A DNA stretch of 51,176 nucleotides. Source: Bryobacterales bacterium (lineage in GTDB: Bacteria > Acidobacteriota > Terriglobia > Bryobacterales > Bryobacteraceae). The notes below the pieces were generated by a model. The model was given only the letters and a program-made list of their open reading frames with translations, was not told where the DNA came from and did no database searches. The position numbers and the translations under genes were made by a program. The stretch spans positions 1 through 51,176 of the forward strand of contig JAEUQD010000260.1 of assembly GCA_016789925.1 (NCBI GenBank), in the 5' to 3' direction. This document shows, one piece after another, positions 1,813 to 38,500 of the stretch (the stretch's first letter is position 1; the number at the start of each line of letters is the position of its first letter).

Positions 1813-1815
1813 CTC

Positions 1816-6106: not shown

Positions 6107-7399
6107 GTGGATCGTAGACGTCCAAAGGTATGTGTCGTGTTGGTGGATCGCGCCAACTATGGCCGCTTAAAGCCGGTGATCCGTGCGATCTCACACCGGC
6201 CGGAACTTGAACTGCAAATCCTTGCCGCCGGAACGATGGTCCTGGCTCGATTCGGGCATCCTGTTGACGTTGTTGCAGCCGACGGATTTCGGATCGACGG
6301 TGAGATCTTTGTTGAGTTAGAAGGATCGACTCCGACGACCATGGCGAAATCCGTGGGCTTTGCCGTGGTGGAGTTTGCGAGTGAGTTCCAGAGGCTGAAG
6401 CCGGATGTCGTATTGCTGATCGGTGACCGCTACGAGGCCCTCGCTGCCGCCATCGCCGCAGCCTACATGAACATTTGCATCGTCCATGTACAGGGGGGTG
6501 AAGTGTCGGGTTCGATTGACGAAAGCGCCCGGCACGCCATCTCGAAGTTCGCACATTACCACTTCCCAAGTACGAAGCGTTCCGCGGAGTACTTAATCCG
6601 GATGGGCGAGACGCCCTCGACGATTCTCGGCATCGGCTGTCCCTCCAGCGACATTGCCCGGACCTTGGACACGCGCGTTACACCAGCGATGGTGAACGCA
6701 GCCGGCAGTGGCACCATGCTGGATGTGAACAAGCCATACCTGTTGGTGATTTTTCATCCGACCACCACGGAGTACGGCGGTGAACAAGCGCAGATTCAGC
6801 AACTGCTCTCGGCGCTCGACCGTCTTTCACTCCAGACGCTGCTGCTGTGGCCGAATATCGACGCAGGTGCGGACCAGATCAGCAAAGCGATCCGTATTTT
6901 CCGCGACCAGAACGCGCCGAAATGGCTGCGGATCGTAACTAACCTGATGCCTGAACACTATCTGAAGGTTCTCGCCAGTGCGGCGTGCGCGATCGGGAAT
7001 TCGAGCAGCTTCGTCCGGGACGCCGGCTACTTTGGCACCCCCGTGGTATTGGTGGGCGAGCGGCAAAAAGGGCGGGAAGCTGATATTCACGTCAGCCGTG
7101 TCGCACCGGTAGCGGACGACATCTTCCGGACAAGCTTGCGGCAAATTGAGCATGGGCGCTATGCACCCAGCAGCCTTTACGGCGACGGGATGGTTTCCGA
7201 GCGGCTGGCCGAAAGCCTGACGCGGCTGAGACCGTACACGCAGAAGCGCCTTCACTACATCTTTGAGGAGACAGTAGCAGGACCAACTAACGGCCATGCG
7301 AACCTTGGGCATCATCCCGGCGAGAGGCGGATCGAAGGGGATTCCGAACAAGAATCTGGCGCTGCTCGCGAACAGACCGTTATTGGCATACACGGTTGA
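6107..7399 (+). CDS. neuC: UDP-N-acetylglucosamine 2-epimerase, hydrolysing (NeuC type)
   Basis: NeuC converts UDP-HexNAc to the free 2-epimeric sugar plus UDP and supplies NeuB with substrate. The N-terminus has VDRANYGRLKPVIRAI (family form: R-x-D/N-Y-x-x-x-K/R), then LIGDRYEALAAAIAAAYMNI, HVQGGEVSGSIDE and HYHFPS, ending with GNSSSFVRDAGYFGTPVVLVGERQKGRE, all typical of the family. The start is a GTG 3 bases after the deacetylase stop. The protein is 430 residues against roughly 380-390 for the family. The extra C-terminal 34 residues come from a 104-base overlap into neuA and look like out-of-frame neuA sequence, so the original stop was probably lost. Confidence 0.93.
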   Translation: MDRRRPKVCVVLVDRANYGRLKPVIRAISHRPELELQILAAGTMVLARFGHPVDVVAADGFRIDGEIFVELEGSTPTTMAKSVGFAVVEFASEFQRLKPDVVLLIGDRYEALAAAIAAAYMNICIVHVQGGEVSGSIDESARHAISKFAHYHFPSTKRSAEYLIRMGETPSTILGIGCPSSDIARTLDTRVTPAMVNAAGSGTMLDVNKPYLLVIFHPTTTEYGGEQAQIQQLLSALDRLSLQTLLLWPNIDAGADQISKAIRIFRDQNAPKWLRIVTNLMPEHYLKVLASAACAIGNSSSFVRDAGYFGTPVVLVGERQKGREADIHVSRVAPVADDIFRTSLRQIEHGRYAPSSLYGDGMVSERLAESLTRLRPYTQKRLHYIFEETVAGPTNGHANLGHHPGERRIEGDSEQESGAAREQTVIGIHG

Positions 7400-8036
7400 A
7401 GCGGCACTGGCATCCCGCCGCCTGAATCGGACGGTACTGTCCACCGATTCGATCGAGATTGCCCGGGCGGGAGCGCAAATGGGTGTTGACGTGCCGTTTC
7501 TTCGGCCGCCCGAACTGGCGCTGGACTCCACGCCAACCATTCCTGTCTTGCAGGATGTAGTGAAGCGCCTGGAAGCACGCCAAGAATTCTACGACGCGAT
7601 ATTCACGTTGCAGCCGACGAATCCTTTACGTACGGTCGACGATATCGACGGGGCGATCGAACTCCTGGAGCGCACGGGAGCGGATTCAGTGATCGGGTTC
7701 GTCGACGTCGGGGAGCGTCATCCCGCACGGATGAAACGGATCGACGATTGCGGTCGGACTCACGATCCGCCCTTCGCCGAGGTGTTCGAGGGCCAACAGC
7801 GCCAGGCGCTGGAGAAGCTGTATCTGCGCGAAGGGTCAGTGTATCTGACGCGCCGGGATGTATTGATGAACGAGAACTCACTGAAGGGCCGCGACTGCCG
7901 GGCGTGGATCATAGCACCGGAGCGGGCGTGCAATATCGATACGCCCTTCGACCTTTTTCTGGCCGAGCAAATGCTGAAGTGGCGTTGCATCGGAAATGGC
8001 TGTAGTGCACGGCCAGTTCTTTCCGCAATCGGTTGA
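7296..8036 (+). CDS. neuA: CMP-nonulosonate (N-acylneuraminate) cytidylyltransferase
   Basis: NeuA activates the nonulosonic acid with CTP to the CMP-sugar used by a transferase. The 246-residue protein begins with the nucleotide-binding signature IIPARGGSKGIPNKNLALL and continues with STDS, LQPTNPLRTVDDID and an ending around CNIDTPFDLFLAEQML, all standard for the family. A GAGGAG ribosome-binding site at about 7264 is too far upstream for direct use, so start choice rests on the conserved N-terminus. The gene starts inside neuC. No CMP-sialic-acid-type transferase could be recognised in the window, so the acceptor step is probably done by one of the uncharacterised transferases or lies outside. 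Confidence 0.94.
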   Translation: MRTLGIIPARGGSKGIPNKNLALLANRPLLAYTVEAALASRRLNRTVLSTDSIEIARAGAQMGVDVPFLRPPELALDSTPTIPVLQDVVKRLEARQEFYDAIFTLQPTNPLRTVDDIDGAIELLERTGADSVIGFVDVGERHPARMKRIDDCGRTHDPPFAEVFEGQQRQALEKLYLREGSVYLTRRDVLMNENSLKGRDCRAWIIAPERACNIDTPFDLFLAEQMLKWRCIGNGCSARPVLSAIG

Positions 8037-8041
8037 CCTGC

Positions 8042-9216: not shown

Positions 9217-10970
9217 CGGGCGTTTTCGGGAGTGCGTGTTCGGTGGATCGTGTGCTCGCCATGGTCTCCAGCCAGCGGCATCGCGGGCCCGACTCTACCG
9301 GAGTGCACGTCGATTTCTCGCAAGGCGTCGGCCTCGGCCACAATCGTCTAAGCATCATTGACCTTTCATCCGCCGGGCGGCAGCCCATGACGGATCCCGC
9401 CGAGACCATGCACATCGCCTTCAACGGTGAAATCTACAATTACCGCGAGCTTCGCGACGAACTGTCCGACTATCCGTATCACAGCCGGACGGATACGGAA
9501 GTCGCTCTTGCTGCCTATCAGCGCTGGGGCCCGGACTGCGTGCGGCGCTTCACCGGGATGTTTGCGTTCCTCATCTGGGACAGCCGCGCGCACACGCTCT
9601 TTGCCGCACGCGACCGCTTCGGCGTGAAGCCCCTTTACTACCACCATAGTTCCGACGGTTCTCTCTATCTCGCCAGTGAGATCAAAGCGATTCATGCGGT
9701 CGGCGTTAAGGCGGAGCGTGACACCACAGCGTGGGCAACCTATCTCACGCATGGCTTGCATGACCATTCAAGCCGCACGTTCTGGAACGGGGTGTGCTCC
9801 CTGCTCCCAGGGCACGCCCTCACGTGGCGTGACGGCGTATTAAAGACCTACCAATGGTACGACCTCGCATCGACGGCCGGACCAGACTTCGATCCGCGCA
9901 ATGACGATGAAATCATCGAAGACTACCGTAAACTGCTTCGCCAGGCAGTAAAGCTCCGATTCCGTTCTGACGTGCCGGTGGGCATTGCGGTGAGCGGGGG
10001 ACTGGACTCGGCTACGCTGATCGGGATTATTCGCGAGATCCAGGAACAGGAATCGAACATCAAGGCGTTCACTTACATCACCGGCGATCCGCGTTACGAC
10101 GAGCTCCCATGGACGCTCGACACCTTGACCCGCACACGTCATCCTCTCGTGATCACGGAGCTTCGCGCTTCCGAAGTTCCCGATTTGGCTGCCGATGTCA
10201 TGCGTTTCGAGGACGAGCCTTTCGGTGGTGTCCCCACGCTTGCCTACGCCAAGCTATTCGAGACGGCGAGAAGAGAGGGCGTCACCGTTGTCCTTGACGG
10301 GCAAGGGATGGACGAACAGTGGGGCGGGTATGACTACTATGCGTCAAGCTGCGGGGCTGGGATTGTCCAGGCCACCAGCGATCGGCCCGTTCGAGCGGAT
10401 TGCCTCGTGCCGGAGTTCCGTCGTCATGCCGAACCGCTGGACGCGGTGGCGCCATTCGCCGACAGGCTTCGGAATCTGCAGTACCGGGACGCGTGTTATA
10501 CCAAGATTCCGCGGGCTCTACGGTTCAATGATCGAGTGTCGATGCGATCGTCTGTAGAGCTCCGGGAACCGTTTCTGGACCACCACCTGGTGGAGTTCGC
10601 CTTCCGGCAGCGTCCGGAGTTCAAGATCGAGAGCGGAACCAACAAGGTGCTTCTCCGGCGCATCGCGAGCGCCTTGCTGCCACATCGCGTCGCGGAAGCG
10701 CCGAAGCGCCCCGTGCAGACTCCGCAGCGCGAATGGTTGCGGTCTGAATTGCGGGATTGGGCGAACGATCTGATCGAGACGGCCCTGGCAGCATACGCCG
10801 ATACGTGGCTCAACCCCCTTGCCGTCCGAACGTTCTGGGGAGCGTATTGCAAGGGGGCGTTCGATAACAGTTATTTCGTTTGGCAGTGGCTTAGTTTGGG
10901 ACTCGCTGTGCAAGCAAGCCACGAGCCGGCAACTACGAGAATCGATGAGCGACATTGCACTCACTGTTGA
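9204..10970 (+). CDS. asnB: asparagine synthase-type glutamine amidotransferase
   Basis: A 588-residue class II glutamine amidotransferase plus ATP-pyrophosphatase domain. It begins MCGITGVFG with the N-terminal Cys2 nucleophile, then RHRGPDSTG, NGEIYNYRELR and RDRFGVKPLYY. The synthetase domain has the PP-loop VSGGLDS (Ser264-Ser269) and DGQGMDEQWGGYDYY. Homologues in polysaccharide loci amidate uronic acids or other carboxylated sugars, which fits a glycan with a carboxylated nine-carbon sugar better than free asparagine synthesis. The ATG lies 13 bases before the end of the dehydrogenase gene. Family assignment is secure; the sugar-amidation role is inferred from context. Confidence 0.92.
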   Translation: MCGITGVFGSACSVDRVLAMVSSQRHRGPDSTGVHVDFSQGVGLGHNRLSIIDLSSAGRQPMTDPAETMHIAFNGEIYNYRELRDELSDYPYHSRTDTEVALAAYQRWGPDCVRRFTGMFAFLIWDSRAHTLFAARDRFGVKPLYYHHSSDGSLYLASEIKAIHAVGVKAERDTTAWATYLTHGLHDHSSRTFWNGVCSLLPGHALTWRDGVLKTYQWYDLASTAGPDFDPRNDDEIIEDYRKLLRQAVKLRFRSDVPVGIAVSGGLDSATLIGIIREIQEQESNIKAFTYITGDPRYDELPWTLDTLTRTRHPLVITELRASEVPDLAADVMRFEDEPFGGVPTLAYAKLFETARREGVTVVLDGQGMDEQWGGYDYYASSCGAGIVQATSDRPVRADCLVPEFRRHAEPLDAVAPFADRLRNLQYRDACYTKIPRALRFNDRVSMRSSVELREPFLDHHLVEFAFRQRPEFKIESGTNKVLLRRIASALLPHRVAEAPKRPVQTPQREWLRSELRDWANDLIETALAAYADTWLNPLAVRTFWGAYCKGAFDNSYFVWQWLSLGLAVQASHEPATTRIDERHCTHC

Positions 10971-12243
10971 GGGCCTTTCCAAGCGGTATCGAATCGGCGA
11001 ACGGACCCAGGCATACCAGACGCTGCGGGACTCGTTGACGGGCCTGCTGCTGACGCCCTACCGCCGGATTCGGACGCGGCTTCAGACCGCGGATGAGAAT
11101 TCCGCAGGCGACAACTTGATCTGGGCTCTCAAGAACGTCTCGTTTGAGGTGAGGCGGGGCGAGGTGATCGGCATCATTGGCCGGAACGGAGCCGGCAAGA
11201 GCACGTTGCTGAAGGTCCTTTCCCGCGTAACGGAGCCGACCACCGGGTATGCGGAGTTGTGCGGACGCGTGGGATCTCTGCTCGAAGTCGGGACTGGCTT
11301 TCACCCTGAATTGACCGGACGAGAGAACGTCTACTTGAACGGTGCGATCCTCGGGATGAGGCGGCAGGAAATCCACAAGAAGTTCGAAGAAATTGTCGCC
11401 TTCGCCGGTATCGATCGATTCATTGACACACAGGTGAAGTTTTATTCCAGCGGCATGTATCTACGGCTCGCTTTCGGAGTCGCCGCGCACTTCGAGCCGG
11501 AGATCCTGGTGGTGGACGAAGTGCTCGCGGTAGGCGATCTCGATTTCCAGAAGAAGTGCCTCGGGCGCATGTCGGAGGTTGCACGCGAGGGACGCACGGT
11601 TCTCTTCGTCAGCCACAACCTGACAGCGATTTCCAGCCTCACGGAACGGTGCCTGCTGCTGAGCGATGGTCAGGTCGCCAAGTATGGCGAAACCGAGGGG
11701 ACCATCGCGGCCTATCACGCCTCGCTCGTCAATGCCCAGGTGAACCTCGCCGACCGCACGGACAGGACAGGGTCAGGCCAGATCCGGTTCACGGCCCTCG
11801 AAATCCTGAATGGCGACACGGGCGAGGCCGCTTGCTCAATTTGCTCGGGGCAGGGCGTGCGGATCCGGTTGTACTGGGAATGCGCCGCTCCTGTGAACTC
11901 CGCCGACGCGGCAATGGATATTCGCGTGAACAGTTCGCTAGGCGTCCCGATTGCCAGCTTCTCCAGCCGATTTGAGCCCTGGGAACACGCCCCGCTCCCC
12001 AAGCGGGGCGCTTCGGAATGCATAATCCCATCCTTTGCGCTCGCACCGGACGATTACACGCTCGACATCTGGGCCGGCATTCGAAATCGCCAGGCAGATT
12101 ACCTCGGCAGCGCGGCGCTGTTGCCCGTGCGCATGAGCGACTACTTCGGAACCGGCCAGATGCCACAGTTCCGAAAACATGGAGCAGCCTTACTCCGTCA
12201 TTCTTGGACGCTGTTCCCGAATACTCCGGCCGCCGGGCACTAG
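10945..12243 (+). CDS. ABC transporter ATPase of Wzt/TagH type with C-terminal glycan-binding domain
   Basis: A 432-residue ATPase. Walker A is GRNGAGKST, the signature is the divergent FYSSGMYLRLAFG seen in polysaccharide exporters, and Walker B is ILVVDEVLAVGD followed by the His switch in VSHN. Residues from about 250 on (GSGQIRFTALEIL...PNTPAAGH) form a beta-sandwich like the Wzt C-terminal domain that recognises the finished O-antigen. The ATG at 10945 overlaps asnB by 26 bases; an earlier in-frame start lies deep inside asnB. Such ATPases work with a Wzm-type membrane permease, but none is visible in the window, so the partner lies outside or elsewhere in the genome. Confidence 0.9.
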   Translation: MSDIALTVEGLSKRYRIGERTQAYQTLRDSLTGLLLTPYRRIRTRLQTADENSAGDNLIWALKNVSFEVRRGEVIGIIGRNGAGKSTLLKVLSRVTEPTTGYAELCGRVGSLLEVGTGFHPELTGRENVYLNGAILGMRRQEIHKKFEEIVAFAGIDRFIDTQVKFYSSGMYLRLAFGVAAHFEPEILVVDEVLAVGDLDFQKKCLGRMSEVAREGRTVLFVSHNLTAISSLTERCLLLSDGQVAKYGETEGTIAAYHASLVNAQVNLADRTDRTGSGQIRFTALEILNGDTGEAACSICSGQGVRIRLYWECAAPVNSADAAMDIRVNSSLGVPIASFSSRFEPWEHAPLPKRGASECIIPSFALAPDDYTLDIWAGIRNRQADYLGSAALLPVRMSDYFGTGQMPQFRKHGAALLRHSWTLFPNTPAAGH

Positions 12244-12264
12244 TCTTATTGCAGGTGCACTCGT

Positions 12265-18161: not shown

Positions 18162-19195
18162 CCGCGCGAATGAATCCTGCTGCCGTGACGGCTAGCCCCG
18201 GACTCTTCCGCCTGTCTGGCTGGCGCAGGGCGCGCATTACTGGGCAACCGCTGGATGATTGCTCGCTGATCGTGCCGACCCTGCGCCGTCACGAGGACAT
18301 CCTCGCATTGTTAACTCACCTGACAAAGGAACCGGAGCCGCCGGGCGAATTGGTAATAGTGGACGGAGCCGGAGACGGCCAACTGGGTCTTGTCTTGGAC
18401 CGGTGGGCGATGGATGTTTCCCTGCCCTTTGACCTCGTCTATGTCGAGGGACCGCGCGGTCTGACACTGCAACGGAACGTCGGCATCGATGTGAGTCACG
18501 GTCAGTTTGTGTTTTTTCTTGACGACGACGCGCTTCCTCTAGAGGGTTATTTTCGTGCGATCCGCACAGCGTTTCTTACTAGCCCTTCGATTGGCGGTGT
18601 CTGCGGCTCGCTCGTGCTGCCTCCCTCAGCGCGTCTGCCGTACCGGTGGCGACTGCGCTTTGCGCTCCGAATCGTACCCAGAATTCGGCCGTTTGCCTAT
18701 CATCCGTCTGGCACATCGGTTCCTCCGATCCTTGCGCCGCAGGCCGGGACCCGCCCCGTCGACATCATGCCCGGTTGCGCGTTCGCCTTGCGCCGGGAAG
18801 TATTCTTGCAGCACCGCTTTTCAGCGTTTTTCACTGGCTATTCCTACGGTGAAGACGTTGAGATGTCCCTTCGCGTCGGCAAGACGTGGCGGCTGCTCTG
18901 CTGTGGCGAAGCTCTCGTCATTCATAGGCAGGCCCCAACCAACCGATTGCATGGCTTCCGTAAGGGCCGCATGGAAATGCTGAATCGGCATTTCATCTGG
19001 AAGCGCCACGTTCCGCATCCCGGCCGGATAAATCAGTTCCGGTTTTGGGCTGATGCCGCACTTGTCGTCGCGCTCGATCTCCTGTCGGCACGGTTCGCTC
19101 ATTCGGCCGGGATGATCGTCGCGGCCGGACGATGCGTCTTCAACGAACCCACCTTCGAAGAGGGCCCCGCGGCCCTCGAATATGAACTCGTATGA
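18158..19195 (+). CDS. family 2 glycosyltransferase
   Basis: A 345-residue GT-A enzyme. Features are SLIVPTLRRHEDILALL, ELVIVDGAGD, the donor-site FFLDDDALPL, and GYSYGEDVEMSLRVGK for the acceptor site. Membrane-associated hydrophobic stretches occur near ADAALVVALDLLSARF at the C-terminus. The ATG at 18158 overlaps the preceding stop; an in-frame start at 17804 lies inside the GT4 gene and is rejected. The stop overlaps the polymerase gene as ATGA, so the two are probably translated together. Confidence 0.88.
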   Translation: MTARMNPAAVTASPGLFRLSGWRRARITGQPLDDCSLIVPTLRRHEDILALLTHLTKEPEPPGELVIVDGAGDGQLGLVLDRWAMDVSLPFDLVYVEGPRGLTLQRNVGIDVSHGQFVFFLDDDALPLEGYFRAIRTAFLTSPSIGGVCGSLVLPPSARLPYRWRLRFALRIVPRIRPFAYHPSGTSVPPILAPQAGTRPVDIMPGCAFALRREVFLQHRFSAFFTGYSYGEDVEMSLRVGKTWRLLCCGEALVIHRQAPTNRLHGFRKGRMEMLNRHFIWKRHVPHPGRINQFRFWADAALVVALDLLSARFAHSAGMIVAAGRCVFNEPTFEEGPAALEYELV

Positions 19196-20544
19196 CAGAC
19201 CTTGTCCCAAGGCGGTTGCTTCTCATCCAGGTACTGATCACATGCGGCCCTCCGGTCCTGCTCCTCAGCAGCGGCAGGTCCTCAGCGGCAGCCATCTGGT
19301 ATTTCGGCGTCCTCCTGGCGATCGTGCTCTGTTCAGCCGCCGGTAAGCGTGCGGCGCCGGGAGGCGCACTCATCGTCGCAACCATTCCCTTGCTAATGGT
19401 AATTCGCGACTACTTTTCCTATAGCTCGGTATTCGCGGTTTTGGCCGTGGGAGTGGCGGTATATGTCTTCGCGATGCCGCAGAGTGTAGCCGAGTTGACC
19501 CGAAATCGGACCGCATTTGGACCTCTTGCCGCTTTGTCTCTCTTTTGGGCCCTTTCCGCGATTACGACTGGCGACGTTCTCACAAATATCCGTGCGCTCG
19601 AACTGGCGCTGGCTGTCGCCAACGTTTACCTTCTCGGGCACAGCCGCCGCTGGCTAGGGGCCAGTCTCAACGGCCTGGTCCTCTGCACCTTCCTGGTCAG
19701 CCTTGGCCTGCTGCCGTTCGGCGAGCGCCTCGGCGCGGCGCAGATTGGTGAGATCTCGCTCGGCAATCCCGCACGCACGGGCTTTCTCTCCGCCTTGGTA
19801 CTGTTACTCGCGTTTGCAGACCGTGGCCGCTGGTTGCTTTTAGAGGCAGCGCGCCGATGGATCTTCGTGATCGTTGCGGCGGCATCCTGCACCCTGGCGC
19901 TTTCCACCTCGCGAGGAGGATGGGCTGTCGCCGTTGTCATGCTGTGCAGCATTGCCGTGCTGGACCGGCGATCCCGGACGCATGTCATGAATTCGGCCGT
20001 GATCACTCTCGTTGCGGTGGTCGTTGTGCTCCAGACGGCGCGGGGCACCACCGTCATTCGCTACTTCGATAAGGTGATGTCATCAGAGAGATCAGTACTG
20101 GCGCGCACCTCGGGCCGCTCCGATCAATGGCGTGTATTCCCTACCGTTGTTTGGGATTCTCCGGTCTGGGGCCACGGTTTCGGCGCGGGGCGGCGGACTT
20201 CGTATGAGTACACCGGTGTTGGCCGCGACTTCCACTCGCTCTACCTTCACGTCGGCACAGAGACCGGTTTGCTCGGTCTGGCTATCCTTGCCTATCTCAT
20301 GGCTAGCATTGGCAGGCGTTGTCGCGACCACCGGCGAATGACTTCCGAGACCTTGCCGCTCGCAGCATTGCTCGGGTTCGCCACTATTGGGATCACCGTC
20401 AACGGATTTGACGCCATCTCGGGTGTCTACGTTGGGCTCGCGCTGCTGGGTGGTGATCTGCGTTCGCTGTACGTCGTTGTACCTACCCCCCACCAATCAG
20501 CCGAGGCACTTGATAGTACGGCCGAAACTGTTCAATCCTTATGA
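19192..20544 (+). CDS. O-antigen polymerase/ligase-like membrane protein (Wzy/WaaL)
   Basis: A 450-residue polytopic inner-membrane protein with about 10-12 hydrophobic segments. Near residues 295-380 it has the large periplasmic-loop signature of the Wzy_C/WaaL family: RTSGRSDQWR, SPVWGHGFGAG and DFHSLYLHVGTETGLLGLAILAY. Such proteins polymerise undecaprenyl-linked repeats or ligate chains to a carrier. Its presence implies a Wzx/Wzy-style step, although a Wzt-type ATPase is also in the locus and no flippase is visible. It is not an exosortase: the exosortase Cys/Arg/His signature is absent. Confidence 0.88.
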   Translation: MTDLVPRRLLLIQVLITCGPPVLLLSSGRSSAAAIWYFGVLLAIVLCSAAGKRAAPGGALIVATIPLLMVIRDYFSYSSVFAVLAVGVAVYVFAMPQSVAELTRNRTAFGPLAALSLFWALSAITTGDVLTNIRALELALAVANVYLLGHSRRWLGASLNGLVLCTFLVSLGLLPFGERLGAAQIGEISLGNPARTGFLSALVLLLAFADRGRWLLLEAARRWIFVIVAAASCTLALSTSRGGWAVAVVMLCSIAVLDRRSRTHVMNSAVITLVAVVVVLQTARGTTVIRYFDKVMSSERSVLARTSGRSDQWRVFPTVVWDSPVWGHGFGAGRRTSYEYTGVGRDFHSLYLHVGTETGLLGLAILAYLMASIGRRCRDHRRMTSETLPLAALLGFATIGITVNGFDAISGVYVGLALLGGDLRSLYVVVPTPHQSAEALDSTAETVQSL

Positions 20545-24999: not shown

Positions 25000-25656
25000 A
25001 TGCTTAAGCGCACCATGGACATCGCGGTCGCAGCGGTCGCCCTCCTGATCCTCTGCCCGCTGTTCGCACTGCTGGCGATCATCGTCAAGCTGGACTCTCC
25101 TGGGGGCGTCCTTTATCGTGCCAACCGGATGGGGCTCGGTGGCCGCCGTTTCAGAATGCTCAAGTTCCGATCCATGGTTGAGCACGCCGACGAAATGGGA
25201 CCGGGCGTAAGTGTAGAACACGACCCGCGGATTACGAGGGCCGGTGCAGTGTTGAGACGAACCAAACTGGATGAACTGCCACAACTCATCAATGTGTTGG
25301 TGGGCGACATGAGTTTGGTGGGTCCCCGGCCTGAAGCGCCCGAGTTCGTCCAGCAATACTCGGCAGAGGATATGGTGGTGCTCTCCGTCCGTCCGGGGAT
25401 CACCGATTGGGCATCCATACGCGGTGTTGACGAGGGACGTGCGCTCGCGTGCCTTGAAAACCCACAAGCCGAATACCAATCGTCGTTTCTGGCGGCGAAA
25501 TTGGAACTGCAACGAGATTACGTCCGGAATCGCAGCTTCCGCATGGATCTCTCGATTCTCCTTTGCACGGCTGTAACGCTTCTTCGTCGTTCCTGGACGC
25601 CTCCTTCGTCCAGATCCCATGCAGGACGACCTGACCTTACCCGCAGTACTCATTAG
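25000..25656 (+). CDS. initiating sugar-phosphate transferase (PglC/WcaJ-type, short form)
   Basis: A 218-residue polyprenyl-phosphate sugar-1-phosphate transferase. It has one N-terminal hydrophobic segment (AVAALLILCPLFALLAIIV), then LKFRSMVEHAD, the signature RRTKLDELPQLINVLVGDMS plus LVGPRPEAPEF, and VRPGITDWASIRG. It lacks the long N-terminal membrane region of WbaP, so it is of the small PglC-like class. It puts the first sugar phosphate on undecaprenyl phosphate at the cytoplasmic face and so starts each repeat unit. The 3' end overlaps the ATP-grasp gene by 38 bases. Confidence 0.94.
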   Translation: MLKRTMDIAVAAVALLILCPLFALLAIIVKLDSPGGVLYRANRMGLGGRRFRMLKFRSMVEHADEMGPGVSVEHDPRITRAGAVLRRTKLDELPQLINVLVGDMSLVGPRPEAPEFVQQYSAEDMVVLSVRPGITDWASIRGVDEGRALACLENPQAEYQSSFLAAKLELQRDYVRNRSFRMDLSILLCTAVTLLRRSWTPPSSRSHAGRPDLTRSTH

Positions 25657-29967: not shown

Positions 29968-30799
29968 CTTATGTGCGACTCCGGCCCGCGGCGCCCCAGG
30001 GCTCCGTGAACTCATCAGGCGCACCCTGCCTCCGTCCTTGGTACTGATTCTTGCCCAATTACGCCGCACGGTTATCCGCACGACATACACTTCACCGGAC
30101 CATTGGCGTTCTCGCGCGCTTCGTACCACGGGATCAAAGGTACTTTGGGGCAACGAAACTTACAACCGTCTGTTTCGCCAAATCCAAGCCCGATTTCTCC
30201 AGCCTTATGTCGAGCGCCTTCCATCCCATGCCCACGTGCTGGATGTCGGCTGTGGCGTCGGCGATGTCAGCCGCTTGGCCCTCTCCATGCGTCCGGACCT
30301 CTCCATCGATGCGGTCGACCTCCCGGAAATGATCGCCGCCGCAACCCGGGAGTGCCCTTTGCCCCAGATCACGTACATTGCCCGCAAGGCGGAAGACTTC
30401 TTCGATTCCTCGAAGGCCTATCACCTCGTGATTTCCTCCGGCTGCTTCGGCATAATTGCCGAGATCCCAAAGCTCGAGAGGGCGATACGCAACATCGCGT
30501 CGATGACCGCTCCCGAAGGTGTCGTGATCATGATGGAGCCGCTTCACACCTGGAGATACCTTGCCCGCGCGAACTATGGGTCCAGTCAAGTTATCCAACT
30601 CGTGTCCGGACTGGGCTTCGAACTAATCGTGAGAAGCGGCGCTCTGTTTTGGCCCTACCAACCGTGGCTGACCCGCTCCGAGGTTCCAGCCTCCACGGTC
30701 GAAGCAAGATTCGCGCAAGGAGAACGGTTGCTCAGCCGGCTGGGTACGAACAAGTGGGCAGACTACCAGTTTCTCGTATTCGCGAGAAGTCTCCAATGA
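29954..30799 (+). CDS. class I SAM-dependent methyltransferase
   Basis: A 281-residue methyltransferase. The SAM motif is VLDVGCGVGDVSRLAL around residue 95; DAVDLPEM ends strand 2, and VISSGCFGIIAEIPKLERAIRNIASMTAPEGVVIMMEP is the motif II/III region. The N-terminal 80 residues are basic (RRTLPPSLVLILAQLRRTV) and may contact membrane or acceptor. ATG 29954 lies 5 bases after an AGGAAG and overlaps the acetyltransferase by 14 bases; ATG 29960 is an alternative. It likely O- or N-methylates a sugar of the glycan. Confidence 0.84.
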   Translation: MLMADLCATPARGAPGLRELIRRTLPPSLVLILAQLRRTVIRTTYTSPDHWRSRALRTTGSKVLWGNETYNRLFRQIQARFLQPYVERLPSHAHVLDVGCGVGDVSRLALSMRPDLSIDAVDLPEMIAAATRECPLPQITYIARKAEDFFDSSKAYHLVISSGCFGIIAEIPKLERAIRNIASMTAPEGVVIMMEPLHTWRYLARANYGSSQVIQLVSGLGFELIVRSGALFWPYQPWLTRSEVPASTVEARFAQGERLLSRLGTNKWADYQFLVFARSLQ

Positions 30800-31782
30800 A
30801 CGTGCTCGCCGACACAGCCCGGTTTCTAGCTTATCATCTCCTCCCCCGTGAGTCGCTGGCGCGGAGGCTTGCTGCATGCTTTGCCATGCCGGGATTCAAA
30901 TTCCAGCCAGAGTTCTCCGGCCGCGTGGCGATCTTAAAACTGGCGCGCCATTTCCTTGCCGCTGGACACCGGCCCGTCGCCCTCCTGCCCGACTATCTCT
31001 GCAATGTCGTCGAAGTTGCTGTCCGGAAGGCTGGCTTCGATATTCTGCACTACCGTACCGACGACCTCCTTGAACCGGATCCCACCGCTATCGTCCGTGA
31101 ACTCCAAACCAGTGCTCCTGGCCTCCTGCTCACGTCCAATATGTTCGGATCTTCCGCTCTCCTCGATGCCATGCCAGACGACACTTTCCGCGCGGCTGTT
31201 CTATCGAGCGGAGTCGCCGTCCTCGTCGACCTCTGCCAGGATATCTCCCTCATCCACCGGCTACCTTCCGGTTATGGCAATTGTCTCGCCGCGGTAGTTA
31301 GTTTCAACGACAAGAGCTTTCCCAGCGTTATGGGTGGAGGTATCCTGGCCCCCTTCCCTGTTCCGCCTAGTTCCAAGCGGCTCGCCTGTCGTGAGGTTCT
31401 GAAGTTGTATCGGGAACTGGGCATAAAACTGTTGAGCGCCACCGGTATTGTCCCGCGCCGCACCCAAGCCCGTTTCGAGTACTCGCATTGCGCACGCTTC
31501 CCATATACCTTCGAGTTGTACGAACCGGCACGCATTCAGTACATCCTGGGACTCATCGGCTTTAATCGTCTGAACGAACGAAATCGCCTGAAGCTTGATC
31601 ACGCGCGGCGGACTCCAGACGTGAGACGGACCCGCTTCTTCGAAACAGCCCCGTTTCTGATAACCGGCTCGACTCCTCCTCGGGGTCGCCGCAAGCCCTC
31701 CTATGCGCGGTTCAACCAACCCTTGGAAAGCCTCCGGCCTGACCTTCACGCCATTCACAATAAGGGCTTTTGGGATTCCTAA
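30796..31782 (+). CDS. DegT/AHBA-synthase-like PLP protein, divergent
   Basis: A 328-residue protein I place tentatively in the DegT/DnrJ/EryC1 aminotransferase fold. ALLPDYLCNVVEVAVRKAGFDILHYRTD matches the 'P-x-Y...A-V...G...D' region, AVLVDLCQDISL matches the cofactor-Asp region (usual 'EDAAQ'), and VVSFNDKSFPSVMGGGI matches the PLP-Lys region (usual 'SF...K...GEGG'). The protein is about 60 residues shorter than normal family members. ATG 30796 overlaps the methyltransferase stop; the frame is open upstream to 30103 but that part is a shadow. It may make an amino sugar, or be a non-catalytic partner of the classical DegT enzyme encoded at 34343. Confidence 0.58.
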   Translation: MNVLADTARFLAYHLLPRESLARRLAACFAMPGFKFQPEFSGRVAILKLARHFLAAGHRPVALLPDYLCNVVEVAVRKAGFDILHYRTDDLLEPDPTAIVRELQTSAPGLLLTSNMFGSSALLDAMPDDTFRAAVLSSGVAVLVDLCQDISLIHRLPSGYGNCLAAVVSFNDKSFPSVMGGGILAPFPVPPSSKRLACREVLKLYRELGIKLLSATGIVPRRTQARFEYSHCARFPYTFELYEPARIQYILGLIGFNRLNERNRLKLDHARRTPDVRRTRFFETAPFLITGSTPPRGRRKPSYARFNQPLESLRPDLHAIHNKGFWDS

Positions 31783-31791
31783 GTGTGACTT

Positions 31792-33048
31792 ATGAATATC
31801 TGGTTGATTCAACCCGGAGAACGCCTGCCCCTGACCCCCGATGTGCGCAAAATGCGTACGGCCTTTTTGGCAGATGCGCTCGTCGAGCGCGGTCACACAA
31901 TAATATGGTGGGCGAGTGCATTCGACCATTTTCAAAAGAAATGGATCTGCGTGGACGAGACCGAGTTCCATGTCTCTGACAGCCTTACTATCCGCTGCCT
32001 GAAGGGTTGTGGCTATTCAACTAACATCTGCTTCCGTCGAGTCGTCGATCACCGCCTTGTCTCCTGGGCGTTCAGCCCATGGGCTCGCCAAACCCAGCCG
32101 CCCGATGTCATCGTCGCCTCCACGCCCCCTTATGACCTTGCCTATCAGGCCGCCCGTTACGCCCGGCGCCATGGCATTCCCCTCTTAGTGGATATCCGTG
32201 ATCCCTGGCCCGACCTGTTCCTCAATCACGTCCCACGCGCGGCTCGCCCCATCGCCCGCGTGGCTCTGACTCGCGAGTTTTCCATGATGCGCCAACTCTG
32301 TCTTTCGGCAGTGGGCATCATCGGCGCTACCGGGACCTTTCTCGATATGGGACTGTGTTACGCCGCGCGCGAGCGGAACGCATCGGATCGTGTCTTGTAC
32401 CTCGGCTACCGGCCACGTCGCGAAGGGCCGCGGAGCGAGAGGATCCGTGCGGTGGCGGAACGGTGCCACGGCGCTTTCGTCGTCATCTTCCTCGGAACAC
32501 TAGCCGCCTATCACAACCCAGCAGTGATGCTGGACGCCGCCCGCCGCTTACAGGACCGGCACATTCTGTTTGTTATTGCCGGCGACGGTGAGTTACACGA
32601 TCAACTCGCGGCGCACGCGGCCGCCCTACCGAATGTCGTCATGACCGGCTGGCTGGGCCAGGCCGATATCGACAGCATGTTGCCGCTGGCCCATGTGGGT
32701 GTCTGTCCAACTCCCTTTGACATTGACCTGTTCCCCAACAAGGCATTTGTTTACTTCTCGGCTGGCTTACCGGTCTTGTCTGCGTTCCAGGGAGACCTCC
32801 AGCAGTTGCTTACCTCTGAACAGGTGGGTTTCCACTTTCGCCCCAACGACGGTGAAGCCCTGGCTAACTGCATCTCTCTACTCGACAATGATCGCGCTCT
32901 TCTTGCCCGCATGAGCGCCAACGCTTTACTGCTGTTCCGGCAGCGCTTCGACGTGAGTACCGTCTATCGCGAATATGCCGACCTTGTCGAGGCGGTGTGC
33001 CGACCGGCAATTGCTGAACGGGCGCCCGCCGTCCTGTCACCGCTTTGA
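31792..33048 (+). CDS. family 4 (group 1) glycosyltransferase, WbuB-like
   Basis: A 418-residue GT-B transferase. The N-terminus MNIWLIQPGERLPL, KMRTAFLADALVERGH and ASTPPYDLAYQAARYARRHGIPLLVDIRDPWPD are characteristic of the WbuB-like GT4 branch. The donor domain has FVVIFLGTLAAYHNPAVMLDAA, IAGDGELHDQL and CPTPFDIDLFPNKAFVYFSAGLPVL, where 'PNK...Y.AG.P' takes the place of a clear EX7E. It starts 9 bases after the DegT-like gene. This branch often transfers N-acetylated amino sugars such as FucNAc, but no substrate is assigned here. Confidence 0.87.
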   Translation: MNIWLIQPGERLPLTPDVRKMRTAFLADALVERGHTIIWWASAFDHFQKKWICVDETEFHVSDSLTIRCLKGCGYSTNICFRRVVDHRLVSWAFSPWARQTQPPDVIVASTPPYDLAYQAARYARRHGIPLLVDIRDPWPDLFLNHVPRAARPIARVALTREFSMMRQLCLSAVGIIGATGTFLDMGLCYAARERNASDRVLYLGYRPRREGPRSERIRAVAERCHGAFVVIFLGTLAAYHNPAVMLDAARRLQDRHILFVIAGDGELHDQLAAHAAALPNVVMTGWLGQADIDSMLPLAHVGVCPTPFDIDLFPNKAFVYFSAGLPVLSAFQGDLQQLLTSEQVGFHFRPNDGEALANCISLLDNDRALLARMSANALLLFRQRFDVSTVYREYADLVEAVCRPAIAERAPAVLSPL

Positions 33049-33075
33049 CTTACTCCCCTTTGAACGGAGCGACGC

Positions 33076-34356
33076 ATGAAGATCACTCTGATCCACGGAA
33101 GATACTTCAATAGCTGGGAGGCGCTCGGCCTCGGCTACATCGGCGCTTATCTCCGATCACACTTGCCAGGCGTCGAGTTGAACTTTTTTCAAGGCTGTTT
33201 CGATTCCGACGATGAGATCATCGCTGGTTCCGTCAATTCCGATATCGTCGCATTCTCGTGTACGGCGCCAACTCTCGGAAGCTCCCGAGCCATCGCGGGC
33301 GCCGTGAAGCAACGGGATCCTGGCATTTGGACCGTTGTCGGCGGCTATCATTGCTCGGCTGACCCTCGCCCGTTGCCCGAGTTCGATTGCATTGTTGTGG
33401 GAGAGGGCGAAGCCGCGATGCTCGACATCGCGCGCGGCCGACGAGTCCCGCTTGTTTACGGCCGCCCGATGTCATTCCAGGAACTGCCATGGCCCGACCG
33501 GTACCTGATTCGCAATGAACGCAACATCCGGGTGGCCTGCGAGGACAACGGGATCCGGATTACTTCGTTTCAAAGCCACCGCGCATGCCCATTCCAATGC
33601 AAGTACTGTCTCGATGGCTTCAACAAGGTCCTCTATCCGAACGCGCGCAAAGCGCCCATGCGCTATCGCGATCCCGCCGATATCGTCGCTGAACTCGCCG
33701 ACGCTACGCGCACGTGGAGACTCGATCTCGTCAAGTTCTCCGATCCGACTTGGAATACCGACATTCGTTGGGTTCGGGAGTTCTGTGCCGAGAAAGTCCG
33801 TCAGCGTGTCGGAGTGCCGTTCTATCCCAACATCCACGCTACGTTGACATCTCCTGAAATGATGAACGACATGCGGCGCGCTGGATGCACTCAGATTGCC
33901 GTCGGGGTCGAATCGGGCTCGCCGAAGATCCTCAGGCAGATCGGCAAGGGCACTACCGTTAGTTCCATTCGAAACTGCATCCGTTGGGCAAAGGACGCAG
34001 GCATCGCCGTCCGGGCCTACTTCATTCTGGGTATGCCTGAAGAAACCGTTGCGGACCTCGAGTTAACGGAACAATTCGCCGACGAGCTAGATGTTGACGA
34101 GTATGGCTTTACGATCCTCTGCCCCTATCCGGGCACCCAAATGTATGATCCTCGCGTCCACGAGCCGTTGCTCAGTCACATGACGGACGAATACTCGAAC
34201 GATTTCTGGGCGACCAATAGCGTCTCGAACGCCGAGTTGCGTCAGTGGCAGCGCCGCCTGACGGCAAAGTTCGCCGACAGGCTCACCTGGCACAACCGGG
34301 CTGTGCAAGACCATTCAACTGTTTCAGCGGGAGAACCGTACTGTGTCACTTATTAG
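33076..34356 (+). CDS. B12-binding-domain radical SAM protein
   Basis: A 426-residue radical SAM enzyme with a cobalamin-binding-like N-terminal domain (about 1-125: LGYIGAYLRSHLPGVEL, IVAFSCTAPTLGSSR, TVVGGYHCSADPRPLPEFDC, VVGEGEAA). The iron-sulfur motif is CPFQCKYC (C-x3-C-x2-C), near residue 173. The rest has the usual VGVESGSPKILRQIGKG, AYFILGMPEET and CPYPGTQMYD. Members methylate unreactive carbons or perform other radical changes, often on lipids or sugars. In a glycan locus a C-methylated sugar is possible but unproven. An upstream GGAGCG precedes the ATG; the 3' end overlaps the next gene by 14 bases. Confidence 0.91.
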   Translation: MKITLIHGRYFNSWEALGLGYIGAYLRSHLPGVELNFFQGCFDSDDEIIAGSVNSDIVAFSCTAPTLGSSRAIAGAVKQRDPGIWTVVGGYHCSADPRPLPEFDCIVVGEGEAAMLDIARGRRVPLVYGRPMSFQELPWPDRYLIRNERNIRVACEDNGIRITSFQSHRACPFQCKYCLDGFNKVLYPNARKAPMRYRDPADIVAELADATRTWRLDLVKFSDPTWNTDIRWVREFCAEKVRQRVGVPFYPNIHATLTSPEMMNDMRRAGCTQIAVGVESGSPKILRQIGKGTTVSSIRNCIRWAKDAGIAVRAYFILGMPEETVADLELTEQFADELDVDEYGFTILCPYPGTQMYDPRVHEPLLSHMTDEYSNDFWATNSVSNAELRQWQRRLTAKFADRLTWHNRAVQDHSTVSAGEPYCVTY

Positions 34357-35560
34357 CCCGATTCCCCTTTCAAATCCCGACATTGGTCACCTGGAGAAGG
34401 CGGCAGTCCTCCGTGTGCTCGGGTCCGGGCGGCTCAGCCTGGGGCCCCTGCTTCCCGCCTTCGAAAGTGCCATTGCTGAGCGAACCGGCGTCGTCCACGC
34501 CATCGCCGTCAACAGCGGAACGAGCGGTTTGCACCTGTGCATCAAGGCTGCAGGTATTGCCGAGGGTGATGAGGTCATCACATCTCCCTTTAGCTTTATC
34601 GCCTCGGCGAACTGCATCTTGTTCGAGGGTGGAATTCCGCGTTTTGTGGACATCGATCCGGTCACCTTCAATCTCGACACGGATCGTATCGAGGATGCGA
34701 TCACTCCCCGGACAAAGGCGATTCTTCCAGTTCACGTATTCGGACGACCTTGTGACATGGCCGCCGTTTTGCGGATCGCGGACCGTTACCACTTGAAAGT
34801 CATCGAGGATGCCTGCGAAGCCATTGGCGCAAGGCTGCAGGGGCGCGCCGCCGGTTCCTTCGGCCAGACCGGTGTTTTCGCCTTCTATCCCAACAAGCAG
34901 ATCACTACTGGGGAGGGTGGAGTGATTGTCACCAACGATTCCAGGGCTGCGGCGCTCTGCCGAAGTTGGCGCAATCAGGGCCGGTGTGATGGCGATGCCT
35001 GGCTCAGCCACGCCCGCCTGGGTTACAACTATCGCCTTTCAGACATTCAATGTGCCCTCGGGCTGGCTCAACTTTCGCGTCTGGATACATTCCTGGCGCT
35101 GCGTGCGCACGTAGCCGCGCGTTACACAGAGTTCCTCCAGGCGGAGGTGCCGGAGGTGCTCCCGCCGGCGCCCCCCGCTGCTGGCAGCGAAATGAGTTGG
35201 TTTGTCTACGTAGTCCGTCTTCACGATGAGTTCACACAACAACATCGTGACTGCATCGTGAACGACTTACGCGCGGCGCACATTGGTACCAACATCTACT
35301 TCACGCCGATTCACTTGCAGCCGTTCTTCCGGCGTCAGTTTGGATACCGGCCCAACGATTTCCCGATTACCGAGCGGATCTCAGCCAGGACAATCGCTCT
35401 GCCGTTCTTCAACCGCTTGACTGACCGCCAGATCGCTTTCGTCGTCCATGCATTGAGGAAAGCGATCGGGAGGTTGAAACCCCGATCGCTTTCCCTAGGC
35501 GCGAGAGCTACTTACTGCGCCAGTGCCGCCAGCTCGGTCGCCGTCAGTGCCCGGTTGTAG
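34343..35560 (+). CDS. DegT/DnrJ/EryC1/StrS-family sugar aminotransferase
   Basis: A 405-residue PLP-dependent aminotransferase. Family marks are AVNSGTSGLHLCIKAAGI, EVITSPFSFIASANCILFEGG, VIEDACEAIGA, the PLP-Lys region FAFYPNKQITTGEGGVIVTND and GYNYRLSDIQCALGLAQL. It converts a keto nucleotide sugar to an amino sugar. The start is a GTG overlapping the radical SAM gene. The normal family end falls near residue 375 (HALRKAIGRL). The frame then runs through a perfect hairpin (35457-35494) and adds about 25 residues that are antisense to the convergent giant gene, overlapping it by 49 bases. This tail is probably not functional. Confidence 0.92.
   Translation: MSLISPIPLSNPDIGHLEKAAVLRVLGSGRLSLGPLLPAFESAIAERTGVVHAIAVNSGTSGLHLCIKAAGIAEGDEVITSPFSFIASANCILFEGGIPRFVDIDPVTFNLDTDRIEDAITPRTKAILPVHVFGRPCDMAAVLRIADRYHLKVIEDACEAIGARLQGRAAGSFGQTGVFAFYPNKQITTGEGGVIVTNDSRAAALCRSWRNQGRCDGDAWLSHARLGYNYRLSDIQCALGLAQLSRLDTFLALRAHVAARYTEFLQAEVPEVLPPAPPAAGSEMSWFVYVVRLHDEFTQQHRDCIVNDLRAAHIGTNIYFTPIHLQPFFRRQFGYRPNDFPITERISARTIALPFFNRLTDRQIAFVVHALRKAIGRLKPRSLSLGARATYCASAASSVAVSARL
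35457..35494. terminator. perfect 14-bp hairpin between convergent genes
   Basis: GGAAAGCGATCGGG (35457-35470) and CCCGATCGCTTTCC (35481-35494) are exact reverse complements separated by 10 bases. The arms carry AAAG/CTTT at the outer ends and a GC-rich inner half. There is no long T tract on either side, so rho-independent action is plausible but weaker than usual. It lies inside the last codons of the aminotransferase frame and 18 bases beyond the stop of the convergent giant gene, so it could end both transcripts. Confidence 0.72.
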
Positions 35561-38500
35561 ATCCGGAACTCGTCGATGGAGCCCGAATAGGGAAGTGGAA
35601 AAGTCTCGGAGTTGTTTTGGCCGAAGCGGAACGGTACGCTGGTCGTGACCGGACGGCTCGGTTGGGGGAAAGACGACGTCCCCACTCCATCCACGTAATA
35701 GCTGACGCTTTGGCCGAGCCGCACGACCACCGCAACATGATGCCAGCGGCCGTCGTTCACCTTCCCCACCTTATCCGTAGTGACCCGAGGCTGCCCGGCG
35801 CCCGCGTTGTTCGCGCCCAGTTGGAAGCTGAGGTTGCCTTGCGGCGATACCCTCAGCATGTACCCGACCGTCGTGCCGCCGACTGTTTCCAGTTTGTTGA
35901 GAAGCACCTCCCACCGATCATGGTTGGTCGTCTTCACCCATCCGGCGATCGTCATGTCGGAAACCAGGTTGAGCGCTGTGGCCGGAGCTCCCGCGACAAC
36001 TCGCGCCTCGCTGTTCGAGCCGTTGAAGGTCAGGGCCTGACCCGAACGGCCCAGCGCTGTCGCCACGCCGCCGATCATTGTCAGGTTCAGCAGATTGCCG
36101 GACTTGTCGGCGGCCTGGCCGCCCGCGAGATCGGCGCTATCGAACGTCCAGTACGCCGCAGTCCCGGAACTGCTCTGAGGTGGCGGCGCCGGTGCGCTAA
36201 CGGTGATCTTCACTTCATCGTTTGCACTCAGCTGCCCGTCTGTTGCCGAAAGGCGCAGAACATAGCTGCCTGCGGCGGAGAACGACGCAGTTGTCACCTT
36301 TGACGACACGTTGCCGAACGTCACTGTTCCCGCGCCGCTGACCACCGACCAGGCCACCGTCACATTCGCCGACGGTAGGCCGTCATCGGATACCGATCCG
36401 TTCAAGTTTGCCCCCGCAGGCAGCGTGATCGCCTGATCGGATCCCGCGGATACCTGCGGAGCAACATTGATCGGCGTTGGGACTGGCGCCGGTGTTGGTG
36501 TTGGTGTTGGTGTCGGTGTCGGTGTCGGTGTTGGTGTCGGCGTGGGTGTTGGTGTCGGCGTCGGTGTTGGTGTCGGCGTCGGTGTTGGCGTGGGAGTCGG
36601 TGTCGGTGTGGACGGGCCAGCCGTGGGTGCACCCGTCACTGCTGCAGCCACCTCCGTCGCAGTCAATGCCCGGTTGTGGATTCGCACGTCATCCAAAGAT
36701 CCCGTGAAATTGGCCCCGTAGGGACTGTACGGGTTCCGGCCGACATTCAACGCGACCCTGCTGGTAGCCCCCTTCGTATTCCACGTCTGCGTGGTCGTGG
36801 CAGCCCCATCGACGTAGAACGTTACATCTCTCCCTAGACGAAGGACTACCGCCACGTGATGCCACTGGCCGTCATTAATGGTTCGGCTCGAGTCGATCGC
36901 ATCACGCGATCCAGTGGCCACATTGTCGCCGCCAATCCGAAGATTGACGTAACCTGACGCTGTCGTCCGCAACAGCCAGCCCGCTTCCATTCCCGCTGCC
37001 GAGTACTTCGAGAGAATCCCCTCGACGCGTGTGGATCGCGTCTTTACCCAAGTCATAACCGTCAGATCGTTGGTGAGCTGGAAATTGCCGCCGCCCTGTG
37101 GGTCGGCGTTCGCCATCGCATACCCGGTCGATCCATTGAAAGCGAGTGCTTGACCCACCTTGCCGCTCTCCGAGCTCACGCCTCCGTAAATCGTCAAATC
37201 CATACCGCCGCCGGACCGGTCCGCCATGCGGTTTCCGCTCTGGTCTCCGCTGTCCATCGTCCAGTACCCGACAGGACCCGCACCGCTAGAGCCGCCCGAA
37301 CTTGGCGCCGGGTTCGCCGTAATGTTGACGGTCGCCGAGTTGGTAAGGGTTCCGTCGCTCGCCGTGAGCCTCAGCACATAGTTGCCAGCCACTCCAAACG
37401 CAGCCGTCGTCGATGTGCTGCTTGCGCTGCCAAATGTCACCGTTCCCGGGCCGCTGACCACTGACCAGTTTGCCGTCAAGACGTTACCCGGCAGGCCGTC
37501 ATCGGTCATCGTACCCGAAAGGCTCGCTATTCCAGGCAGTGTGACCGTCTGATCCGATCCCGCCGATACTTGCGGCGCCACGTTGATCGGCGTCGGTGTC
37601 GGTGTTGGGGTTGGATTTGCCGGCCCTCCGCCTGCGGGCACTCCTGCCGCCGCTAAAGCCACCTCCGTCGAAGTCAACGCCTGGCTGTAGATCCGTACAT
37701 CGTCCAGCGATCCGGTCAAATTCTCCCCATACGCGGTGTACGGGTTCCGGCCCACATTGAGTGCAACCTTGCTGGCCGCCGCCTTCGTGTTCCACGGCTG
37801 TGTTGCCGCAGCAGCCCCATCGACGTAGAACGTCACATCTCGCCCAAGACGCACAACTACCGCCACATGATGCCACTGACCGTCATTAATGGTTCGTCCC
37901 GAGTCGATTGCATCGCGTGATCCGTATGAGACATTGTCGCCGCCAACCCGAAAGTTGACGTTTCCCGAGGCAGTCGTCCGTAACAGCCAGCCTGTCTCCA
38001 TTCCGGCTGCCGAGTACTTGGATAGAATTCCCTCCATCCGCCTGGATCGCGTCTTGACCCACGTCATCACCGTCAGGTCGTTAATCAGTTGGAAATTGCC
38101 GGCCCCCTGCGGGTCTCCATTGGCCACCGCGTACCCTGTCGATCCATTGAAAGCGAGACCTTGACCCACCCTGCCTGTGTCCGAACTAACGCCTCCGTAG
38201 ACCGTCAGATCCATACCGCCGCCGGACCGGTCCAGTTCGCGGTTTCCGCTCCGGTCGGCCGTGTCCATCGTCCAGTATCCGGCCGGACTCGGACCGCCCG
38301 ACCCACCCGAACCACCTGAACTCGGAGCCGGGTTCACCGTGATGTTCACGGTCGCCGAGTTGCTGAGCGAGCCATCGCTCGCAGTCAATTTCAACACGTA
38401 AGCGCCAGGCGCCCCAAATACGACGGTCGTCGAGATGTTGCCCGGGTTGCCGAATGACGCCGTTCCCGGTCCGCTCGCCATCGACCAGTTCGCTGTAAGC

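Follow-up and report, generated by a model that had tools for sequence, protein, structure and literature searches.

An orphan cobalamin-type radical SAM protein in a bacterial surface-glycan gene run and its candidate role in sugar modification

The 51,176-nucleotide contig JAEUQD010000260.1 of a Bryobacterales bacterium (assembly GCA_016789925.1; the whole stretch that was analysed, hereafter the window) carries a gene for a 426-residue protein with a cobalamin (B12)-binding domain and a radical S-adenosylmethionine (SAM) domain. The gene lies near the 3′ end of a plus-strand run of glycan genes of about 35 kb. We tentatively favour the reading that the protein is a cobalamin-type radical SAM enzyme which modifies a sugar carbon during surface glycan assembly, most likely by C-methylation. 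The class to which it belongs is known and its branch appears to be new, as judged from sequence comparison: the protein is an orphan of the superfamily and falls in no named family.

The gene starts with ATG, with a GGAG six bases upstream at 33066–33069. A search of its product against Pfam with hmmscan gave matches above the cut-off for both domains (B12-binding 55.5 bits, cut-off 32.1; Radical_SAM 73.1 bits, cut-off 29.5). The motif CPFQCKYC occupies residues 171–178, and its cysteines C171, C175 and C178 are the sole invariant columns of a 62-row alignment of homologues. An earlier note, made from the letters of the stretch, had described a B12-domain radical SAM protein with this motif at 33076–34356, and these matches confirm it. 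The structure model, computed with the 62-row alignment as input, has a mean predicted local distance difference test (pLDDT) score of 89.9 and a predicted template modelling (pTM) score of 0.89, and shows a Rossmann domain followed by a radical SAM barrel. The protein thus has two features of class 1 of these enzymes, a CX3CX2C motif in the radical SAM barrel and an N-terminal B12-binding Rossmann domain. The window B12 domain also keeps GGYH and GEGE; across the alignment GGxH is kept in 30 of the 62 rows and EGE in 22, and none of the 12 HpnJ rows has a whole motif of either kind.

One close relative was found, in a locus (L047) that is evidently the same as that of genome G037, which belongs to the same order and another family. 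The two proteins are 67–68% identical over their whole length, with 0.22 differences per nonsynonymous site (pN) and a saturated value of 0.76 per synonymous site (pS). On these grounds the window gene is no chance open reading frame (ORF) and is under purifying selection.

The gene begins 27 bp past a GT4 glycosyltransferase gene, and its end overlaps by 14 bp a gene for a DegT/DnrJ/EryC1-type protein (DegT), which has its own GGAG (34330–34333), nine bases before a GTG start that lies inside the end of the radical enzyme gene. The placement that the earlier note had given, between a GT4 gene and a sugar aminotransferase and overlapping the latter, is therefore correct. All annotated genes from base 2 to 35560 lie on the plus strand. 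That the run is a glycan run is clear from its NeuB-family synthase, UDP-GlcNAc 2-epimerase family protein, CTP_transf_3 protein, Wzt-type ABC transporter, glycosyltransferases (GT2 and GT4), Wzy_C protein and Bac_transf protein (Table 1).

In L047 the gene order is a partial ORF without a Pfam match, a GT4 gene, an NAD-dependent epimerase gene, a second GT4 gene, the radical SAM gene, a DegT gene and a Bac_transf gene. The second GT4 gene, directly before the radical SAM gene, is split over two frames in that assembly, and the contig ends within the Bac_transf gene, whose product is a fusion with CoA_binding_3 / Polysacc_synt_2. The DegT proteins of the two loci are only 34% identical, and the GT4 protein adjoining the window enzyme gave no match to the GT4 protein adjoining the L047 enzyme, its only match in that locus being one of 78 residues to the other GT4. 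It follows that the enzyme itself, and not a whole block of genes, has been kept in glycan loci. The recurrence of the order GT4–radical enzyme–DegT in two loci with differing neighbours supports a glycan role for the enzyme and leaves the exact sugar open. The name sugar aminotransferase, which the earlier note had given to this neighbour, is correct at the level of the family. The window DegT scored 328.7 bits against PseC (TIGR03588), under the cut-off of 423.5, and its best solved-structure match was perosamine synthetase (E = 4.2e-77). For the L047 DegT, the closest solved structures were two entries named aminotransferase or homologue and a ‘Sugar aminotransferase’ (7b0m), with perosamine synthetase next.

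The window genome encodes a B12-dependent MetH, recognised by its activation domain, and the GDP-mannose-4,6-dehydratase family has 20 matches there, all of them outside the window contig; cobalamin use and a supply of keto-sugars are plausible on this account. Under the favoured reading, SAM bound at the iron-sulphur cluster of the CX3CX2C motif would give a 5′-deoxyadenosyl radical, which would take a hydrogen off the sugar. Methylcobalamin in the N-terminal domain would then deliver its methyl group, to be recharged by a second SAM. The sugar, or amino sugar, would be in activated form or linked to a lipid, and would gain the methyl group at an unactivated carbon. As a working model we consider GenK and GenD1, cobalamin radical SAM enzymes that C-methylate sugar carbons of gentamicin (PMC5461906); the possible likeness is one of activity, and they differ in that their substrate is an antibiotic pseudosaccharide and no polysaccharide locus is involved. 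C-methyl branching, which the earlier note had offered together with epimerisation, is a possible outcome that no single residue proves.

In favour of this reading, the model matches AprD4, MgmA, TsrM, OxsB, CysS and TokK over most of its length, with VIA-align Z scores of 31.6, 29.2, 28.3, 27.5, 27.2 and 19.9, respectively (MiaB, 25.3). In addition, cobalamin radical SAM enzymes have been described as predominantly methylases (PMC13142503, preprint). A shared fold does not show function, however, and several observations weigh against the reading. The best structural match, AprD4, is a dehydratase, and the best NCBIfam match, HpnJ, is listed with the non-methylases (PMC13142503). The window protein and its relative (the pair) lack three residues that are nearly universal in the 60 other rows of the alignment: Ala170 stands where all 60 have Gly, Pro224 where 56 have Asp and none has Pro, and His254 where 52 have Arg and only one, from L075, has His. 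The Trp below the cobalt reported for TokK and inferred for CysS and ThnK (PMC13331322) is absent, Pro65 taking the position of TokK Trp76. Furthermore, the linker from GEGE to the barrel is only 25 residues long in the pair, against 27–34 in nine rows, 38–49 in 50 and 110 in one. Finally, the radical SAM gene of locus L073, whose product scores 142 bits to the window protein and so equals the closest relatives beyond the pair, does not have a glycan setting: its neighbours encode a methyltransferase, an outer membrane protein and an amidohydrolase.

These positions can be set against solved enzymes. At the second site, the pair's Asp-Pro corresponds to Asp-Pro in AprD4, Asp-Glu in OxsB, Asp-Ala in TokK and Asp-Ser in TsrM. 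At the third, Arg is found in OxsB, TokK, MgmA and AprD4, and Gln in TsrM, which is described in passages of PMC8992657 and PMC13331322 as performing no reductive SAM cleavage; His254 may be taken as a flag and not as a conclusion. The pair also has Asn150 where 53 of 58 filled rows have Tyr, and keeps GVESGS. The residue below the cobalt, in the loop after strand 3, is Asn186 in OxsB, Arg69 in TsrM and Trp76 in TokK (PMC13331322), and in the SCTAPT loop of the window enzyme Thr63 aligns with the OxsB Asn and the TsrM Arg. A β-hairpin after strand 5 is described for OxsB, TsrM and TokK in a passage of PMC13331322 that does not state it as defining. Given the 25-residue linker, which forms one short strand in the model (residues 126–128), most of this class 1 hairpin is probably missing in the pair.

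A second reading, which we regard as a serious if somewhat weaker contender, keeps the sugar as substrate and replaces methylation by removal of a hydroxyl group, as in AprD4, or by ring contraction or rearrangement, as in HpnJ and OxsB, yielding a deoxy or carbocyclic sugar. The earlier note had left this chemistry out of its list. The non-methylases BchE, OxsB, HpnJ and PbsB form or rearrange rings (PMC13142503, preprint). AprD4, the radical SAM diol dehydratase of apramycin biosynthesis, acts with AprD3 to deoxygenate paromamine, an aminoglycoside precursor (PMC5461906); the structure with paromamine (PDB 6FD2) is the top VIA-align match (root-mean-square deviation 2.9 Å over 380 residues, 20% identity). 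AprD4 is also the top match of the family profile at 212.9 bits, and shares with the window enzyme Asp-Pro in place of Asp-Asp. HpnJ has a related radical SAM core and is reported to make a cyclitol ether from bacteriohopanetetrol-linked glucosamine (PMC12583986; on Acidobacteria see also PMC5462960). Against this, a methylase, MgmA (PDB 9CCB), which C-methylates a glutamine of methyl-coenzyme M reductase, is nearly as close: it ranks second in VIA-align, over 346 residues, scores 199.9 bits with the family profile, and ties with AprD4 in Foldseek (E = 2.1e-19, first, and 2.2e-19). At 450 residues MgmA is of similar length to the window enzyme and keeps GEGE, although its substrate is a protein and it retains RGCP and Arg. 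Moreover, the B12-like domain of AprD4 aligns poorly to the family profile, whereas the window protein keeps the B12 motifs, and AprD4 has CPYPCRFYC, in which the second and third Cys are one residue further apart, preceded by FG where the window enzyme has RA. HpnJ, for its part, has degenerate GGxH and GEGE and a longer C-terminal part, and all NCBIfam scores of the window protein are far under their cut-offs.

It is unlikely that the enzyme acts within the glycan run on something other than a sugar, such as the polyprenyl carrier, a lipid or a small molecule. The run does contain non-classical genes, among them an AMP-binding-like protein just under the cut-off, an Asn synthase and a Soli_cterm protein. 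Twice, however, the gene lies directly between GT4 and DegT genes, and several more distant relatives lie beside GT4, flippase-type, DegT or phosphoglycosyltransferase (PGT) genes. Epimerisation of a sugar by radical hydrogen exchange, the other outcome suggested in the earlier note, is improbable: inversion at a carbon is in principle within the scope of radical SAM chemistry, but no analysis gave specific support and no epimerase family is among the best 25 of 33 NCBIfam matches. A housekeeping hopanoid enzyme (HpnJ) present here by chance, or a decayed paralogue, is barely credible, for although HpnJ is the best NCBIfam name, the score is 106.3 bits against a cut-off of 577.6, the window genome encodes a genuine, separate HpnJ elsewhere (767 bits), the HpnJ branch is a separate one and the gene is under purifying selection. 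The prospect raised in the earlier note, that the protein might fall in a housekeeping branch found mostly outside glycan loci, was accordingly not borne out.

Comparison with NCBIfam gave, besides HpnJ, scores of 83.9 bits for the ladderane-type family, 80.8 for BchE, 76.7 for TIGR04013, 75.2 for MJ_0865/MgmA, 70.5 for PhpK, 66.2 for ApyD and 64.3 for AprD4, with cut-offs of 251 to 750 among the best matches. Membership was rejected for HpnJ (TIGR03471), from which the window protein is also separated by a well-supported branch, and on score for BchE (TIGR02026; cut-off 481.35 bits), MgmA-type glutamine C-methylase (TIGR04014; 360), PhpK-type P-methylase (TIGR04479; 600) and AprD4 diol dehydratase (NF033070; 500).

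The family is rare. Some match to the window protein (E ≤ 0.001) occurs in 60 of 61 genomes (its own and 60 relatives), yet among the matches listed identity exceeds 35% only in the window and in G037 (68%). With a profile built from the two sequences (E ≤ 1e-45), 2 of 257 genomes of the order match, and at class level the genome of the window is the single match in a sample of 399; no family member was found with this profile in 163 better-quality genomes of the order. Searched with the window protein at 1e-30, a phylum-wide sample of 396 genomes gives 12 with a match, and apart from the window's own none of these exceeds 37% identity. In the phylum to which G654 (the source of L049) belongs, 4 of 193 sampled genomes match at 1e-45. 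A scan of genome contigs with two degenerate peptides, which detects only proteins keeping one of them, gave seven relatives in 215 candidate stretches, L047 at 67% and six at 22–27%. The same kind of pattern scan of viral contigs gave 65 pattern stretches and no relative. A plasmid family was rejected, since relatives occur in 118 of 72,556 plasmid records, every one under 60% identity, as was phage cargo (3 of 50,697 phage records, 25.4–27.0%). The window and G037 genomes are fragmented, at 87.6% and 81% completeness, and an estimated contamination of 6.4% in the window genome leaves some doubt about the host of the contig. A further genome of about 2.1 Mb (G821, phylum of G654) gave 36 first-look family candidates, nine of them scored, which are not confirmed members.

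In the phylogenetic analysis, the HpnJ group and two groups named for their motifs, CTFCLWVP and CTFCLWPG, form separate, well-supported branches, and a split with support of 100/98 sets these three groups, plus one row, apart from the other half of the tree, where the pair is found. A quick tree of all 62 rows had joined the pair to four short-linker proteins from L077, L078, L075 and L012 (SH-aLRT 90). This grouping was rejected, as it appeared in only 10% of 200 bootstrap trees of a careful tree of 54 rows, from which the long branches L050, L076, L004, L051, L066, one L083 copy, L065 and L038 had been dropped. The pair is therefore an isolated branch with no settled nearest kin.

To describe the surroundings of more distant homologues, we screened gene neighbourhoods with phmmer, using 14 window and L047 proteins as queries, counting neighbours whose gene centres lay no more than 5 kb away and accepting ORFs that overlap. 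In this crude screen a glycosyltransferase, PGT or DegT match lies near 22 of 43 B12 radical SAM copies, or 20 of 41 without the window and L047, whose genes served as queries; as the loci were picked by similarity to the window protein, these counts give no base rate. One locus with an ABC match only (L061) is left out of the 22, and the screen misses real cases, such as a GT2 by one L081 copy and a partial GT4 by L068. The three HpnJ loci, L064, L067 and L074 (the last with short flanks), gave no glycan neighbour match in the screen. Loci L081 and L082, from the phylum of G654, adjoin GT4 genes, L082 lying near a DegT gene as well, and the L075 gene lies between a GT4 gene and one for a Polysacc_synt flippase-type protein. 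A counter-example is L083 (134 bits to the window protein), which gave no match. Several of the more distant relatives have a glycan setting, and others do not.

Five acidobacterial loci (L055–L059) each carry one or two B12 radical SAM genes beside glycan-type genes, which in L055 comprise GT2, GT4, an NTP_transferase–Bac_transf fusion, a Wzz/AAA protein and an epimerase. Their products resemble the window enzyme in this setting and are its best relatives in the phylum sample, at no more than 37% identity over part of the length; they differ in size (about 500 residues), in their CTFCLW motif and in lying on another branch of the tree. These loci (in G079, G152, G237, G197 and G229, of the window's phylum and two families) hold the CTFCLWVP and CTFCLWPG types, with the two genes about 8–9 kb apart in the four of the five stretches that have both; L055 was annotated and the others screened. 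In L082 (genome G764, positions 6306–12774) a DegT gene directly adjoins three consecutive genes for B12 radical SAM homologues (7457–9016, 8875–10128 and 10139–11626), and a GT4 gene follows; all of these are on one strand.

Table 1. Coordinates of the radical SAM gene, its domains and motifs, and surrounding genes in the window.
Feature	Position	Strand	Basis or remark
B12-binding/radical SAM protein, 426 aa	33076..34356	+	ORF list, Pfam, structure model
B12-binding domain, residues 11–117	33106..33426	+	Pfam; five-stranded Rossmann fold in model; GGYH and GEGE kept
SCTAPT loop after Rossmann strand 3, site of below-cobalt residue in solved enzymes	33256..33273	+	Alignment
Radical_SAM domain, residues 168–334	33577..34077	+	Pfam
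CPFQCKYC, CX3CX2C iron-sulphur motif	33586..33609	+	Preceded by unusual HRA against usual xRG
GT4 glycosyltransferase	31792..33048	+	Pfam
DegT/DnrJ/EryC1 sugar aminotransferase	34343..35560	+	Pfam DegT_DnrJ_EryC1, 400.6 bits
328-aa protein without Pfam match	30796..31782	+	Start overlaps stop of preceding methyltransferase gene by 4 bp
Bac_transf initiating sugar-phosphate transferase	25000..25656	+	Pfam
Wzy_C / O-antigen ligase-type membrane protein	19192..20544	+	Pfam
ABC transporter ATPase with Wzt_C domain	10819..12243	+	Pfam
CTP_transf_3 (CMP-sugar synthetase type)	7296..8036	+	Pfam
UDP-GlcNAc 2-epimerase family	6107..7399	+	Pfam
NeuB-family synthase, 3′ part, with SAF domain; cut by contig end	2..634	+	

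Other genes of the window are recorded here in their own right. The 328-residue protein at the plus-strand gene 30796–31782 bears by eye an unconfirmed likeness to pyridoxal phosphate-dependent aminotransferases (SFNDKSFPSVMGGG), and its single-sequence model has a pLDDT of 31.9. By the nonulosonate genes, 631–3720 (+) encodes a MaoC–SDR (short-chain dehydrogenase/reductase) fusion and then a protein with an FkbH N-terminal domain, which is unusual in a glycan run, and 22772–24997 (+), within the run, encodes a 741-residue protein with a Soli_cterm domain. On the opposite strand, 35512–39996 (−) encodes a 1494-residue protein that has β-helix, PKD and three LamG stretches as well as an extended Thr-Pro repeat; at its 3′ end this gene shares 49 bp with the end of the DegT gene. 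Adjoining the glycan run, 40359–40994 (−) encodes a PEP-CTERM protein with an HpiC1-like domain.

For sugars, the main known instances of cobalamin radical chemistry are in aminoglycoside antibiotics and in the head group of a hopanoid. A sugar substrate for the window enzyme would extend this chemistry to the assembly of surface polysaccharides. A literature search of titles and the beginnings of abstracts, with subscription literature mostly outside its reach and hence no proof of absence, found no B12 radical SAM enzyme described in a polysaccharide locus; in the passages covered of a Burkholderia paper (PMC12013268), the mentions of radical SAM refer to HpnH. More speculatively, the window protein and its relative might found a family of enzymes that alter the carbon skeleton of polysaccharide sugars by radical chemistry. 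The radical core of this family would be rebuilt, with other residues in place of Gly170, Asp224 and Arg254, and its B12 domain would be compact and lack the complete hairpin. Taken with the distantly related genes in acidobacterial polysaccharide loci, this could mean that glycan tailoring by B12 radical enzymes arose more than once, and that such cells carry as yet undescribed C-branched, deoxy or carbocyclic sugars.

Whether the residue below the cobalt correlates with the chemistry is said to need more data (PMC8992657), and what cobalamin does in the non-methylases is described as speculative (PMC13142503). If a sugar is indeed the substrate, the window protein, being short and predicted with good confidence, would be a suitable enzyme in which to study what divides the methylating members of the class from those that rearrange, and one would predict sugars that lie outside routine monosaccharide lists.
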